A stretch of 64,000 bases of DNA from Streptococcus sp. Marseille-P6264. Lineage in GTDB: Bacteria; Bacillota; Bacilli; Lactobacillales; Streptococcaceae. This document shows positions 2,004 to 12,691 of this stretch, piece after piece (position 1 is the first letter of the stretch; each line of letters begins with the position of its first letter). A program made the translations under genes and the position numbers. Location of the stretch: assembly GCF_902460355.1 (NCBI RefSeq), contig NZ_CABPTO010000008.1, forward strand, positions 1 to 64,000, given 5' to 3'. A model generated the notes under the pieces. The model was not told the DNA's origin and did not search any database. It was given only the letters and a program-made list of their open reading frames with translations.

Positions 2004-3206
2004 ATGAAGAAAAAGCTACTTACATCAGTTTTATTGAGTGCTGTGATCCTTTCTCAAGGTGCTGCGCTAGTAAATGTTAAAGCTGATAGTACAGATGATA
2101 AAATTGCAGCTCAAAATAGTAAAATTGACAGTTTAACAAATCAACAAAAAGCGGCACAAGCACAAGTTGATGAAATTCAAAAACAAGTTTCAGCTATTCA
2201 AAAGCAACAAGAAGAGCTTCAAGCAGAAAATGAAAAATTGAATGCTGAATCTGCGAAACTTACTGCTGAAATTGAAGAGTTATCAAAGAATATTGTTGCT
2301 CGTAATGAGTCTCTTGCAAATCAAGCACGTAGTGCTCAAACAAATGGTACGGCAACAAGCTATATCAACACAATCATCAACTCTGCTTCCATCACTGAAG
2401 CTATCTCTCGTGTAGCAGCGATGAGCGAAATCGTTTCGGCTAACAACAAAATGCTGGAACAACAAAAAGAAGATAAAGAAAAGATTGCTGAAAAACAAGT
2501 TGCTAACAATGAAGCTATCAATACAGTCATTGCAAACCAACAAAAACTTGCAGACGATGCTCAAACGTTGACAACTAAGCAGGCTGAACTCAAGGTTGCT
2601 CAACTGAACCTTGAAGCTGAAAAAGCAACTGCTGAAAATGAGAAAAATAGTCTCTTAGAACAAAAAGCAGCAGCTGAAAAAGCGGCGGCTGAGGCAGCAG
2701 CGGCAGAAGCAGCATATAAGAATCAGCAACAAGCGCAACAACAAGCGATCCTTGCTTCAGGAAATACAAGCTTCGCAGCACAAGTTCAAGCTGTAAATAA
2801 TACAGGTGGAACCCCTGCAGCAGAAGCAGCAGTTGCTACATCAGGAGCAGTTGTTGCAACTCCATCATATAGCCTTTCAGCATCAACTTATCCTGTAGGT
2901 CAATGTACTTGGGGTGCTAAGACTTTGGCACCATGGGCTGGCGACTACTGGGGTAATGGTGGGCAATGGGCAGCTAGTGCAGCAGCAGCAGGCTTCCGTA
3001 CAGGATCACAACCACAAGTTGGAGCAATCGCATGTTGGAACGACGGTGGCTACGGACACGTTGCAGTTGTAACAGCAGTTCAATCTGCTAACAACATTCA
3101 AGTATCAGAAGCAAACTATGCTGGTAACCAATCAATCGGTAATCACCGTGGATGGTTTGACCCAACAAATGCACAAGGATACGTAACATACATCTATCCA
3201 AACTAA
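2004..3206 (+). CDS. pcsB: secreted CHAP-domain peptidoglycan hydrolase PcsB
   Basis: A 400-aa secreted protein needed for septal splitting in streptococci, where it works with the FtsEX complex. A Sec signal peptide ends near residue 27 (NVKA/DS). A long Gln/Glu/Ala-rich coiled coil follows (about 30-250), then an Ala-rich linker and a C-terminal CHAP amidase domain (296-400) with Cys301 in GQCTWG and His352 in GYGHV. AAGGAG precedes the ATG. The CHAP domain closely resembles that of the protein encoded at 10488-12434. A WalR box lies upstream and a repeat element downstream. Confidence 0.95.
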
Positions 3207-4464: not shown

Positions 4465-4492
4465 AAGTGCCTTGATCAAGTTTTTTTTAGCA
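4456..4492 (+). terminator. terminator after prs
   Basis: AAGGC..GCCTT followed by the self-complementary CTTGATCAAG and eight Ts. The exact fold is ambiguous. Confidence 0.5.
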
Positions 4493-4498
4493 AAAGAC

Positions 4499-4548
4499 TT
4501 GACAATTTAAAGAATATTTCATATACTATACATAGTAACGATAGTTAC
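4499..4548 (+). promoter_or_regulatory. consensus promoter with downstream dyad
   Basis: TTGACA (4499-4504), 17 bp, then TATACT (4522-4527). At the expected start site lies the perfect inverted repeat GTAAC-GATA-GTTAC (4535-4548), which could be an operator or a 5' hairpin. The same -35/-10 hexamers and spacing recur at 6211-6239 before the other small secreted protein gene of this locus. Confidence 0.7.
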
Positions 4549-4588
4549 CAAATAAAAAATGTTTTTTATATAAAAAAGGAGAAAACAA

Positions 4589-5221
4589 ATGAAAAAAGTT
4601 GTACTTTCTAGCGTAGTAGCTCTTTCATTGTTCGCATTAGCAGTACCAGCGTTTGCACAAGGTGAAAATGCTGAATCATCAAACCAATTGAACCAAAAGA
4701 AATACGTTTCTGAACGTGACGTTGCTGATGAAGCAAACACTCAAGTAGCTGCTCACGAAGCTGAAATCAATGCTGAAGCTGAAAAAAATGCAGCAGTTGT
4801 AGCTGCTAAGGCTGCTCTTGAACAATACGGTTCAGGTCATGAGTATGGTAAATATGCAGAAAAAGTTGAGGAAGCTCGTGTAGCGGCTCGTAATGAAGTT
4901 CGTAATGAATATGTTAAGAACCTTCAAAAAACTTACCGTAATGGTGCTAAAACACAAGGTAACTACTGGAATGACCCAACTGGTGTAGAAGATAACAAAC
5001 CTAACGATGTTCGTATCAAAGAAGACCAAGAACGTCAAGGTCAAGCTGGTCAAGCAGGCCAAAACGGTCAAGCTGGTGAAAATGGAAAAGCTGGTGAAAA
5101 CGGTCAAAAACCTGCATCTGCAGCAGAAGCTAAAGCTTCAGAAGCTAAAGGTGCTAAAGGTGCTAAAGCTGGACAAAAAGCAGCTGGTAAAGCTCTTCCA
5201 AAAACATCTGCAGTTAAATAA
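4589..5221 (+). CDS. small secreted protein with collagen-like stretch and C-terminal LPKTS
   Basis: A 210-aa protein of unknown function. A signal peptide ends at AFA/QG (residue 23). An Ala/Glu-rich, probably helical segment covers about 40-120. Residues 151-174 are eight Gly-X-Y triplets (GQA, GQN, GEN, GKA, GQK types), a short collagen-like run. An Ala/Lys-rich tail ends in LPKTSAVK. LPKTS resembles a sortase motif, but no hydrophobic helix or charged tail follows, and the next in-frame codon is a clean TAA. A class B sortase is encoded 92 bp downstream, past a hairpin terminator. A link to that sortase is inference. Start and Shine-Dalgarno (AAGGAG) are clear. Confidence 0.8.
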   Translation: MKKVVLSSVVALSLFALAVPAFAQGENAESSNQLNQKKYVSERDVADEANTQVAAHEAEINAEAEKNAAVVAAKAALEQYGSGHEYGKYAEKVEEARVAARNEVRNEYVKNLQKTYRNGAKTQGNYWNDPTGVEDNKPNDVRIKEDQERQGQAGQAGQNGQAGENGKAGENGQKPASAAEAKASEAKGAKGAKAGQKAAGKALPKTSAVK

Positions 5222-5252
5222 TTTGTTTTAAACAATTGTACTAACGCAATTT

Positions 5253-5287
5253 ATATCACTGGACCTCTGGTTCAGTGATATTTTTTA
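5253..5287 (+). terminator. terminator between the collagen-like gene and the sortase gene
   Basis: ATATCACTG..CAGTGATAT with an inner ACC/GGT and a run of Ts. The sortase gene has no clear promoter of its own, so partial read-through could set its level well below that of the secreted protein. Confidence 0.8.
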
Positions 5288-5312
5288 GAAAGATTTTATA
5301 GGATTTTTATCT

Positions 5313-6143
5313 ATGAGAAGAAGAAGACAAAAACGACAGCAGAAAAATTGGAAGATTTTTGGTGGTTTAGGAGCTTTATTTGTTGCTATTTTAGCAGGGA
5401 TTTTTCTCCTCCAACAGGTAAATTCTTCGAATTCTGCTGCTAAATCATCCACTAGTCAGGTAGGTAAGGTAACTTATACACCAAGTAAGGAAGAAAAGGA
5501 ATACCTAACTAATCGTTTTAATGGTTTGAAAGCGATCAATCCTGAAACGGTGGCCTATGTCTATGCTCCTGGTACAGAATTGGACGAGCCAGTTGTACAG
5601 ACGGGCGACAACTCAACTTACTTGGATAAGACCTTTGAAGGTGGAAACGAGCCTTATCTGGGGACTGTTTTCATGGACACTGAAAACAAAAAAGACTTTA
5701 GTGACCGTTTGACTTGGCTCTTTGGGCATGCTCGTGGAAGTCAGGTTGGTGACCACCGCATGTTTAATGATGTGAACTACTATGATAAACAGGAATACTT
5801 AGATAAGCATAAGTATGTTGTCATTGAAACACCAGAGCGTAAGCTTTACTATCAGGTAATGGGCTTGGTGATCGTGCCAGAAGAGACTGCTTTTTATCGG
5901 ATTAAGTTTGATGATGATAAGGATTTTGAAACACAGCTTAAGAATATCTATGAAGCTGCCCGTACCAAAGATCCAAAAATTAAGATTAAGGCTAGCGATA
6001 AGTACGTTGTTCTGTCAACTTGTCGTGAAGAGGACGAGACGATTCGTTCTAACCTCTATCTGCGTCAAATTCCAGACTCTGAACTACAGGATTTCCTAGC
6101 TAAACATGGGAATGAGCTTACTTATAAAGCAACTCGTGAATAA
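5313..6143 (+). CDS. class B-type sortase
   Basis: A 276-aa membrane-anchored transpeptidase. It has a very basic N-terminus (MRRRRQKRQQK), one membrane helix (about 14-33) and an extracellular sortase domain with His139 in FGHARG, Cys237 in LSTC and Arg245, the full catalytic triad. The motif spacing and the long helix before the Cys fit class B better than class A or C. Sortase B enzymes usually handle one or two neighbouring substrates, but neither flanking protein has a canonical sorting signal. The exact subfamily is uncertain. It ends in its own terminator. Confidence 0.88.
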   Translation: MRRRRQKRQQKNWKIFGGLGALFVAILAGIFLLQQVNSSNSAAKSSTSQVGKVTYTPSKEEKEYLTNRFNGLKAINPETVAYVYAPGTELDEPVVQTGDNSTYLDKTFEGGNEPYLGTVFMDTENKKDFSDRLTWLFGHARGSQVGDHRMFNDVNYYDKQEYLDKHKYVVIETPERKLYYQVMGLVIVPEETAFYRIKFDDDKDFETQLKNIYEAARTKDPKIKIKASDKYVVLSTCREEDETIRSNLYLRQIPDSELQDFLAKHGNELTYKATRE

Positions 6144-6169
6144 AAATCAGGATTTTTCCTGATTTTTTT
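6143..6169 (+). terminator. terminator after the sortase gene
   Basis: AAAATCAGGA-TTTT-TCCTGATTTT followed by Ts. The sequence is repeated exactly at 7124-7150. Confidence 0.9.
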
Positions 6170-6210
6170 GTTACCTAAGGGCTCATATGAGATTGAATTG
6201 GAGTAAATAC

Positions 6211-6239
6211 TTGACAAACGCTATATGTATATATATACT
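6211..6239 (+). promoter_or_regulatory. promoter for the RFG-repeat secreted protein
   Basis: TTGACA (6211-6216), 17 bp, TATACT (6234-6239): the same hexamers and spacing as at 4499-4527. Confidence 0.8.
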
Positions 6240-6290
6240 AGAGTAGTATGGATTTTCCATAAAATTAATTCTAAATAAAGGAGATAAAAC

Positions 6291-7097
6291 ATGAAAAAAG
6301 TTTTATTGCTTAGTGTATTAGGTCTTTCTGCAGTTGCTAGTGTAGCTTATGCAGCAACTGGTGTGCCTGCTATTCCAGGAGTTACAGCACCTGCTACATC
6401 AGCTGTGACAAAAGTGAACGAAAAAGGTAACCACAATAACCGCTTTGGTTACGGAGTTTCACCAGAGAATAAGACATATGGATATAGCTTTTCAGGTGCA
6501 GCTACTTACCCAGTAGTACCAGCAGCAGGAACAGCAGATGGTAAGCCTTTGGACGACGCAACTCGTGGTAAGTTTGCTCACAATGCTCGTTTTGGTGCAG
6601 GATTCAAGAAAAACGTAGGTACTTTCCCAACAGCACCAGCAGTAAATCCATCAATGCCAGCTACACCAGCGGCTCCATCAACACCTGCTACTCCAGCTAC
6701 ACCAGCGGCTCCATCAACGCCTGCTACTCCAGCAGCACCATCAACACCTGCAGCTTCAGCGGCTCTACCAGCTATTACAGTTAAAAAGCCAGTTGGAGCT
6801 CCAGCAGCAGCAGACCTTCCTTCACAAGCGAACGTTACAGGAACTACAAATGCACGTTTTGGTGCTGCAGCTCAAGAAGATCGTGACAATAATAAAGTAG
6901 CTTATGATGCAGTTTACCAAGCAGGAACATATCCAGTAGCTCCAGCAGCAGGAACAGCAGATGGTCTACCATTAAACGATGCAAAACGTAATTTTGGTGA
7001 TAACACACGTTTTGGTGCTGCAGGACAAGATACTAATCTTAAAGCAGCTACAACATTTGAAAACACAAACTATTCAGCTGTAGTAAACGGTAACTAA
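6291..7097 (+). CDS. secreted protein with duplicated RFG/TYPV module around a Pro-rich linker
   Basis: A 268-aa protein of unknown function. The signal peptide ends at AYA/AT (residue 21). A module with N-x-RFG, ATYPV-x-PAAGTADG and PL-x-DA elements occurs at about residues 49-103 and again at 187-243. Between them is a Pro/Ala/Ser/Thr linker (about 118-160) made of PATPAAPST-type repeats. There is no LPXTG motif, membrane helix or cysteine, so it is released or bound non-covalently. It has its own consensus promoter and terminator. Context suggests a role with the adjacent sortase locus, but nothing in the sequence gives a biochemical function. Confidence 0.8.
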   Translation: MKKVLLLSVLGLSAVASVAYAATGVPAIPGVTAPATSAVTKVNEKGNHNNRFGYGVSPENKTYGYSFSGAATYPVVPAAGTADGKPLDDATRGKFAHNARFGAGFKKNVGTFPTAPAVNPSMPATPAAPSTPATPATPAAPSTPATPAAPSTPAASAALPAITVKKPVGAPAAADLPSQANVTGTTNARFGAAAQEDRDNNKVAYDAVYQAGTYPVAPAAGTADGLPLNDAKRNFGDNTRFGAAGQDTNLKAATTFENTNYSAVVNGN

Positions 7098-7123
7098 TTT
7101 ATTTTTAGTGATATTTATATTAA

Positions 7124-7150
7124 AAAATCAGGATTTTTCCTGATTTTTTT
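7124..7150 (+). terminator. terminator, identical to the one at 6143
   Basis: AAAATCAGGA-TTTT-TCCTGATTTT plus T run, identical in sequence to the terminator on the other side of this gene. Confidence 0.9.
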
Positions 7151-7179
7151 GTTTTTCTATCCATAAATCAGATGGATTT

Positions 7180-10487: not shown

Positions 10488-12434
10488 TTATTTTGGATAG
10501 ATATAGCTAACAGCTCCTTGACCGGCGGCGTAAGGATTGAACCAGCCACGGAAGTTGCCAATGTATTGTTTGCCCGCATAGTTGGATTCTTTGATTTGGA
10601 TGCGGGTATTGGATTCGACATGGGTGACAACACCGACATGCCCATAACCGCCATCGGTCCAGCAAATGATGGCTCCGACTTGTGGGGTGCTTCCTGTTCG
10701 GAAACCAGCTGCGCGTGCGCTAGCTGCCCATTGGCCACCGTTGCCCCAGTAAGGACCAGCCCAAGGAGCCAGTACTTTTGCTCCCCAAGTACACTGGCCA
10801 TGAGGATAAGAGGAGGCTCCAGCATAATCAGGGGTGTAGAGGGTTGGCTCAGGCGTAGTTGGTTTATCAACCTGATAGCTGGTGCCTGTAAGTCCAGTCA
10901 TCTGTCCATTGAGATTACGGTAAACATGGGTATGGAAGAGTCCATTTCCAGCATGCTGTTGCGTATTGATGGTAAATTTATACAGGCCATTGCCCACTTT
11001 GTTAGCAGTGTACCATTTGATGTCATCCTGGCCATTGGCCTCTGACCAAGTTGGTAGAGAAATGGTTCCTGGTCCGAAAGCATCGGAAACGGTCACTTCG
11101 TAATTGTAGGTAGAGATTTTATTGACAGAAACCTTGGCTTTGATATTTTCAGCGGAGAGGGTGACGCTGTCTGTCGCATAGTTATGCTCGCTACCATCTT
11201 TGTACTTAATGTAGATATGATTGGTGTAGCTTCCAGATAAGGCTTGGTGGTTACGGATATTGAATTGTGCAGTAAAAGTCCCATCTCCATTATTACTTGC
11301 CTCATACCACTTGATATTACTTTGATTCTGGGTACTCCAAATAGGGACACGGACGGATTGAATTGCCTTAGATGCGGCAGTTTCAGTGACTTTTACAGTG
11401 TAGGTTCCCTCTTCCTGATTGATGTTTTCAACAGAGAAAAGCGGTTTTTGGTCTTTTTGAGAAGGTATTTTTCCAGCATCTATTGTAGCAGTCGCTCCTG
11501 CTAAACATGTAAAGGCTGGATTGACATAGCTTTCGCCATAGAGATGGATATGGTAGGTTCCGGTATCGTAATTGTGCTTCTTCAGCTCGACTCTGACGCT
11601 ATAACTGCCATCAGGATTTTTCCTTGCTTGATACCATTGTAAATCATCTTGTCCCTTATTTTCAGACCAGGTTGGGACAGTGACCTTATACATGGATTCA
11701 GGAAGATTTTTGATAAGGATTTCCATAATGCCAGGTTCAGGGAAGCTTGTCTGAATGGTCGGATTAGGTTTTTCTAGATGGAAAGTAGTGCCCGATTGGT
11801 AAATCATTTTGCCATTTTTATTTTCATAAGTATCTACGAAATATTTTCCATAACCTTTGTGTTTAGAAAAGTTAAATTCAGTACTCTCTTGCCCAGCTTC
11901 ATACCAATTAAGATCATCGCCACCATTTTCATCAGACCAAACTGCATGGACAATTTTTGAGTTCCTTTGGTCTTTATTTCGCGTAAAATTGATGCGGCCG
12001 GTTTGTCCAGATGTTGTGACGCTTGTCTTGCTAGCAGGCTTATTAACAGTGAAGGTTGTACCATTCAAGCCTATCATTTTACCGTTAATATTAATGTAAG
12101 TGTGCACATGGAAGGTGCCATAGCCAGCGTGCTGCCGGAGGTCAATGGCTGTGCTGGTTGTCTGAGGCGTGGTGTACCATTTCAAATCATCCTGTCCGTT
12201 TTCGTCGGACCAGACTGCGTGGGAAATGGTATAGGGAACCTGAGCCTTGGAGCGGGCATAATGAATCTGTGCTGTATCTCCAGTGACATTGACGGTCACA
12301 TTGCTGGCACGATCAGTGGGGCCTAGGACTTTGTTTCTAGCTTCAGTCGATGTAACAGCTTGAGCTGTGGAATGACTGGCAAATAGCCCAAGGACTGCTC
12401 CGGATAATAAAAACAGCTTCTGATATTTTTTCAT
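10488..12434 (-). CDS. secreted CHAP protein with five Bsp-like repeats
   Basis: A 648-aa protein. The start is placed at MKKYQKL because GGAG lies 7 nt upstream; a longer in-frame N-terminus lacks both a Shine-Dalgarno and a signal peptide. The signal peptide ends near TAQA/VT. Five ~90-residue repeats follow, each with a W-S-x-x-N-G-Q-D-D-L-x-W-Y core and H-x-Y later, resembling the GBS Bsp-like repeat family. The C-terminal CHAP domain (543-648) has Cys548 and His599. It probably cleaves peptidoglycan, with the repeats binding the cell surface. The CHAP domain closely resembles that of PcsB. It sits alone between acpP and purD. Confidence 0.9.
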
Positions 12435-12691
12435 AAATCTCCTTTGAATAAGTAATTTGGATGATTCCATTTAGATTATTCGGGAAAAAATATAAAAAAA
12501 AGAAAAATTTTAAAAGATGTTGAAACTTGAATTTCTAATTTATTTTAGTTTTATGAAATTTTTGATATTTGAAATAAAAGTAATGAAATAGTCAAAATAC
12601 AAAAAATAATATAGGTAGATTTTATTTTTCAGAGATGGATATTCCTAACAAAAATAGATATTTCTCTTCTTTCCCTACTTAGAATAGAATA
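12435..12691. other. AT-rich spacer between divergent CHAP and purD genes
   Basis: About 260 bp, very AT-rich. It must hold the CHAP gene promoter on the minus strand, but no confident -35/-10 pair could be picked. No open frame or repeat was recognised. Confidence 0.4.

Follow-up and report, generated by a model that had tools for sequence, protein, structure and literature searches.

A probable abpA–srtB operon with a tail-less sorting signal, followed by a separately inserted gene, in an oral streptococcus related to S. cristatus

Ordinary sortase substrates carry a membrane tail, and a class B sortase gene standing between two genes for secreted proteins, one ending in a bare LPKTSAVK and the other having no sorting signal, raises the question of what the enzyme acts on and whether the three genes belong together. 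Such a locus lies in the 64,000-bp stretch analysed here (the window: positions 1 to 64,000 of contig NZ_CABPTO010000008.1), which is part of the 2.04-Mb genome of Streptococcus sp. Marseille-P6264. Its three open reading frames (ORFs) occupy 4589–5221 (210 aa), 5313–6143 (276 aa) and 6291–7097 (268 aa), and the same gene order is found in S. cristatus A52, the nearest named relative found. A first-pass annotation of the window had regarded the three genes as one system, possibly a non-canonical one accepting a tail-less C-terminal motif, or else one whose secreted proteins act as partners of the sortase and not as its substrates. We conclude, with a probability of about 0.9, that the locus is an abpA–srtB operon, belonging to an oral streptococcus closely related to S. 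cristatus, and that a separate gene has been inserted behind the operon. The elements of the operon are the following.

4499–4527, plus strand: promoter-like TTGACA-17-TATACT ahead of abpA (exact match, to the consensus only)
4589–5221, plus strand: abpA, amylase-binding adhesin (NF040523, PF22224, solved relatives 2nd4 and 2mxx)
5195–5218, plus strand: LPKTSAVK, C-terminal sorting signal of AbpA (NF040524; function taken from homologues in PMC4974636)
5253–5286, plus strand: hairpin with a 13-bp stem and a T-run in the abpA/srtB gap, likely a leaky terminator
5313–6143, plus strand: srtB, class B sortase specific for LPKTxAVK (NF040525, TIGR03064, catalytic triad)

The product of the first gene scored 206 bits against NF040523 (amylase-binding adhesin AbpA; cut-off 150), 65.7 bits against PF22224 (cut-off 27) and 25.9 bits against NF040524 (LPKTxAVK-anchored surface proteins; cut-off 20), while the sortase reached 453.2 bits against NF040525, the model of class B sortases specific for LPKTxAVK (cut-off 200), and 230.6 bits against TIGR03064 (cut-off 153.75). 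Since scores of 206 against 150 and 453 against 200 place both assignments beyond chance, the first gene is identified by homology as that of AbpA, the salivary-amylase adhesin, and the second as that of the dedicated AbpA sortase; nothing that contradicts this assignment was found. Structures of AbpA relatives have already been solved (2nd4 and 2mxx). The features first noticed in the two proteins were all recovered: the sortase has a complete triad of His139 (in FGHARG), Cys237 (in STCREE) and Arg245, and AbpA, with a signal peptide at approximately residues 1–23, contains eight consecutive Gly-X-Y triplets (residues 151–174, DNA 5039–5110) and terminates in KALPKTSAVK with no membrane tail, 91 bp ahead of the start of srtB. 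The Gly-X-Y stretch, eight triplets only, gave 13.3 bits against the Pfam Collagen family, below its gathering score of 27.2.

The proposal of a sortase that accepts a tail-less motif thus proved correct, but it had been published for homologues in 2016 (Liang et al., 2016; PMC4974636). According to that paper, SrtB cleaves LPKT|S and anchors AbpA, whose binding of salivary amylase was demonstrated for homologues; in work done mainly in S. parasanguinis and also in S. gordonii, wall-bound AbpA was lost in the srtB mutant, and, again mainly in S. parasanguinis, amylase binding required the L, P and T of the motif together with the final AVK. The same text reports that the C-terminal KAGKALPKTSAVK of a homologue suffices to anchor green fluorescent protein (GFP) and that S. 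aureus SrtB failed to replace the streptococcal enzyme. Co-transcription of abpA and srtB is stated in PMC12650345, and the presence of the pair in S. cristatus and other species, with the suggestion of a horizontally acquired island, in PMC5399409. The abpA–srtB tail-less sorting system is therefore already known, both members having NCBIfam models. The window agrees with the S. gordonii and S. parasanguinis locus in gene order, the LPKTSAVK end, the sortase subfamily and the presence of prs upstream, and differs from it by an extra, separate gene between srtB and the aminotransferase gene. With the class B SrtB of Staphylococcus aureus and Bacillus anthracis the sortase shares family and triad (TIGR03064; PDB 1ng5, 1qwz, 1rz2), whereas its substrate motif and architecture are different.

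The survey for co-occurrence proposed in the first-pass annotation was carried out on 284 Streptococcus genomes, one per species, together with 14 control genomes. The sortase model was matched in 109 of the 284 at E ≤ 1e-30 (108 above cut-off) and in none of the controls, and the LPKTxAVK end was detected in 91 genomes at E ≤ 0.01 (88 above cut-off), 89 of which also possess the sortase. The srtB loci were read in 81 of the 109 sortase-positive genomes, that is, in the window and 80 retrieved stretches, and in 76 of them a frame located at most 400 bp upstream ends in LP(K/N)Tx(A/V)xK, most commonly as LPKTSAVK (43) or LPKTHAAK (14). One of the remaining loci, L177, has an srtB with an internal stop and its LPKTSAVK protein further upstream; the other four have no such end in the 400-bp upstream stretch, and among them L227 (genome G139) has a possible divergent substrate, a 188-aa ORF ending in LPNTSALPE approximately 400–970 bp upstream of srtB. 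In 5 of the 109 genomes (G224, G009, G086, G110 and G137) two sortases match the LPKTxAVK-specific model; those of G224 are encoded together at L231, on either side of an LPKTSAVK protein.

By analogy with the S. parasanguinis and S. gordonii homologues, AbpA would be exported by means of its signal peptide, SrtB would cut the T/S bond of the C-terminal LPKTSAVK and join AbpA to the cell wall, and the cell would thereby display a receptor for salivary amylase. A further element lies between the two genes. A hairpin followed by a T-run occurs in the abpA/srtB gap of 73 of the 76 loci (74 by other criteria), with TCACTGA or TCACTGG in 60 of the 76; the inner stem differs between loci by complementary changes, the hairpin of a few loci is an unrelated one, and in the genome to which the window belongs the exact pattern has a single occurrence. 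This element is likely a leaky terminator setting the AbpA:SrtB ratio, which would end most transcripts after abpA and so yield much substrate and little enzyme.

The third gene does not belong to this operon. It is flanked by identical copies of a 31-bp terminator-like repeat, the inserted unit being 981 bp long, as follows.

6142–6172, plus strand: terminator-like 31-bp repeat, copy 1, 3′ of srtB (identical to 7123–7153)
6211–6239, plus strand: promoter-like TTGACA-17-TATACT ahead of the third gene (exact match, to the consensus only)
6291–7097, plus strand: third gene, a separate transcription unit whose secreted product has a Pro/Ala-rich linker between two RFG modules
6399–6632, plus strand: RFG module 1 (profile A1, E 9.8e-30, the row itself having been used in the profile)
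6813–7088, plus strand: RFG module 2, with the end TTFENTNYS (profile A1, E 9.0e-33, the row itself having been used in the profile)
7123–7153, plus strand: terminator-like 31-bp repeat, copy 2, 3′ of the third gene (identical to 6142–6172)

When the flanks of the window were joined at the repeat, the resulting sequence matched the srtB–aminotransferase junction of L185 (genome G026) over 239 bp without gaps at 97.5% identity, and that junction holds one copy of the repeat core, which makes it an empty site. The alignment to another relative, L180 (G025), is split in two, and the spacer there is different. Of the 81 srtB loci, only three contain a homologue of the third gene, namely the window, L187 (G023), where the place is the same, and L159 (G235), where the gene lies upstream of abpA; one more was detected near abpA–srtB in G150 (L041), outside the 81 loci. 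In G066, G067 and G071, which also have the sortase and the LPKTxAVK end, the homologue is elsewhere in the genome, beside a putative choline-binding amidase (judged from the translation). Because of its own promoter, the duplicated terminators, the empty site and the presence of homologues in only 3 of 81 loci, the third gene is, by these comparisons, a separate transcription unit that was inserted at the srtB terminator. Independent inheritance, which had been named as evidence against a common system, is thus found for the third gene and not for abpA and srtB.

The identical promoter hexamers and spacing at 4499 and 6211 had also been read correctly in the first pass. Since the 64 kb contain a third exact copy of this consensus, on the minus strand, TTGACA-17-TATACT is regarded as a common strong promoter and not as a mark of the two genes, and shared regulation through it is unsupported.

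What the third protein does was approached through its sequence. No NCBIfam or Pfam family scored over its cut-off, and neither collection gave a reported C69 peptidase match; the C-terminus, TTFENTNYSAVVNGN, contains no LPxT sorting motif and has no reported NF040524 match; a plasmid collection gave no match to the protein, and its structure prediction, made from two sequences, was uninformative, with a mean predicted local distance difference test (pLDDT) score of 35. The duplicated module around a Pro-rich linker, already described together with the missing sorting signal, has the form N(N/A)RFG … RFG … T(F/Y)xNTNYS, the last part occurring in some copies only. AbpB-like C69 dipeptidases, that of the window's own genome among them (L126:1034–3004, contig 2), were found to carry the same unit in their C-terminal tail. 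AbpB is an amylase-binding dipeptidase, and the third protein resembles it in this tail and differs from it in having no peptidase domain. A search with the whole third protein (E ≤ 1e-3) matched 34 genomes: the match is a stand-alone homologue in 7 and an AbpB tail in 7 others, and the last 20 genomes were set aside as Pro-rich or weak matches that were not read singly.

The link was examined in a blind profile test. With a profile of 10 stand-alone rows, all 10 RFG-tailed AbpB proteins ranked above all 1,080 shuffled sequences (weakest AbpB E 1.8e-4, best shuffle 0.24). The link weakened when the profile was limited to the 8 closest stand-alone rows: 8 of the 10 AbpB proteins still outscored all shuffles, and two (E 0.023 and 0.14) ranked lower than the top-scoring shuffle (0.0032). 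In the opposite direction, a profile of three AbpB tails matched the third protein at E 7.5e-10 and the stand-alone homologue of G235 at 1.9e-6, the best shuffle being 0.017. No LPSTG tail (14 in all) was among the 40 best rows of any profile, and the module profile had no match among solved structures. Apart from one partial, masked copy (G126), 31 AbpB orthologues with 83–100% identity to the body of the window genome's own AbpB were compared; the tail is an RFG module in 17 and a long linker with an LPSTG anchor in 14. On the tree of AbpB bodies a single change (support 94/81) separates the two forms, which points to one exchange of tails rather than many. No description of an RFG tail on AbpB was found in the open-access literature, judged on titles and the starts of abstracts, so the link between the third protein and AbpB seems unreported and modestly interesting.

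Among the 284 genomes, 29 were matched by the module profile; the 9 with E between 0.007 and 0.05 were dropped, and all 20 left at E < 1e-5 possess the AbpA-specific SrtB, compared with 109 of 284 overall (hypergeometric p 1.5e-9, relatedness being ignored). SrtB is also present in 13 of the 14 genomes whose AbpB ends in an LPSTG anchor, so this association may reflect AbpB, or the oral lineages that bind amylase, more than the module as such, and it is probably in part an association between AbpB and SrtB. In an order-level sample of 276 genomes from 69 genera there were 8 matches, all in Streptococcus.

Several points weigh against the interpretation as a whole. No match to the LPKTxAVK end was obtained at E 0.01 in 20 of the 109 sortase genomes, some of which have divergent ends such as LPNTAAIK. 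The hairpin counts (73 or 74 of 76) come without a control of random intergenic sequences, and related loci are not independent; the RFG module that AbpB has in common with the third protein is a short one of low complexity; and the roles given to the hairpin and the third protein are ones that we infer from sequence. With these points considered, the third protein most likely has an accessory role as a secreted protein in the same saliva-facing, amylase-rich niche and is probably not a substrate of the sortase; some relation to amylase is plausible.

A more specific proposal is that the third protein itself binds amylase, RFG … NTNYS being a linear amylase-binding motif common to it and AbpB. 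It would agree with the position of the module in the tail of a known amylase-binding protein and with the presence of the AbpA-specific sortase in all 20 module genomes, and a linear motif would suit overlays, which detect binding after sodium dodecyl sulfate–polyacrylamide gel electrophoresis (PMC5399409). However, the co-occurrence is open to the AbpB or lineage explanation given above, and the literature reports that in S. cristatus CR3 and CC5A, which may or may not carry the third gene, the novel amylase-binding bands of 26–28 kDa were attributed to a peptidoglycan-binding protein and not to one resembling the third protein (PMC5399409), and that AbpB was not detected in amylase precipitates, contrary to earlier studies (PMC4297671). 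The proposal is accordingly a tentative one. The module could instead be a non-covalent, wall-binding tail that stands in for the LPSTG anchor of AbpB and keeps the third protein attached to the cell. The AbpB proteins read end in the module or in the anchor and never in both, which speaks for this reading; the single change on the body tree, on the other hand, indicates one exchange and not repeated replacement, and S. gordonii AbpB, which may have either tail, was reported in culture supernatants in PMC4297671. We consider surface retention a doubtful explanation, on a par with amylase binding.

That the three genes form one system, with the third protein as a second substrate or partner of SrtB, is improbable. 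Adjacency speaks for it, in the window and S. cristatus A52 (L065) as well as in L040 and L041, where the gene is upstream of abpA, but the protein lacks an LPxT motif near its C-terminus, the gene has its own promoter and terminator and an empty site in L185, and its homologues are rare at srtB loci and lie elsewhere in G066, G067 and G071. Of the single system first proposed, the abpA–srtB pair therefore stands and the third gene falls away. The notion that AbpA is a truncated LPXTG protein of a decaying locus, which has only the membrane tail of ordinary substrates in its favour and for which homologues with a full LPXTG and tail had been suggested as proof, can be dismissed, since the short end is kept in 76 of 81 loci, is sufficient to anchor GFP in a homologue, and, among the adjacent ORFs listed for the five exceptional loci, none ends in an LPXTG followed by a membrane tail.

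Farther out in the window, one on each side of the locus, the secreted proteins encoded at 2004–3206 (plus strand) and 10488–12470 (minus strand) share by eye a very similar C-terminal stretch, QCTWGAK..GNGGQW, which we take to be CHAP-like.

For the biology of these streptococci, the tail-less sorting signal is real and unusual, yet it is already in the literature and in curated databases. If the hairpin is indeed a leaky terminator, it would explain how much substrate and little enzyme can be obtained from one operon. The RFG module bears on two questions that seem open, namely the site of amylase binding in AbpB and the reason for the existence of its two forms. It offers a short candidate region for amylase binding by AbpB, of which the third protein would be a stand-alone version. 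RFG … RFG … NTNYS may possibly, though we consider it unlikely as yet, be an undescribed saliva-facing binding module, perhaps for amylase, that occurs in amylase-binding streptococci both as the tail of AbpB and as a small stand-alone secreted protein, whose gene entered here as a cassette at the terminator of srtB, in which case the locus would encode two amylase-related proteins displayed in different ways.

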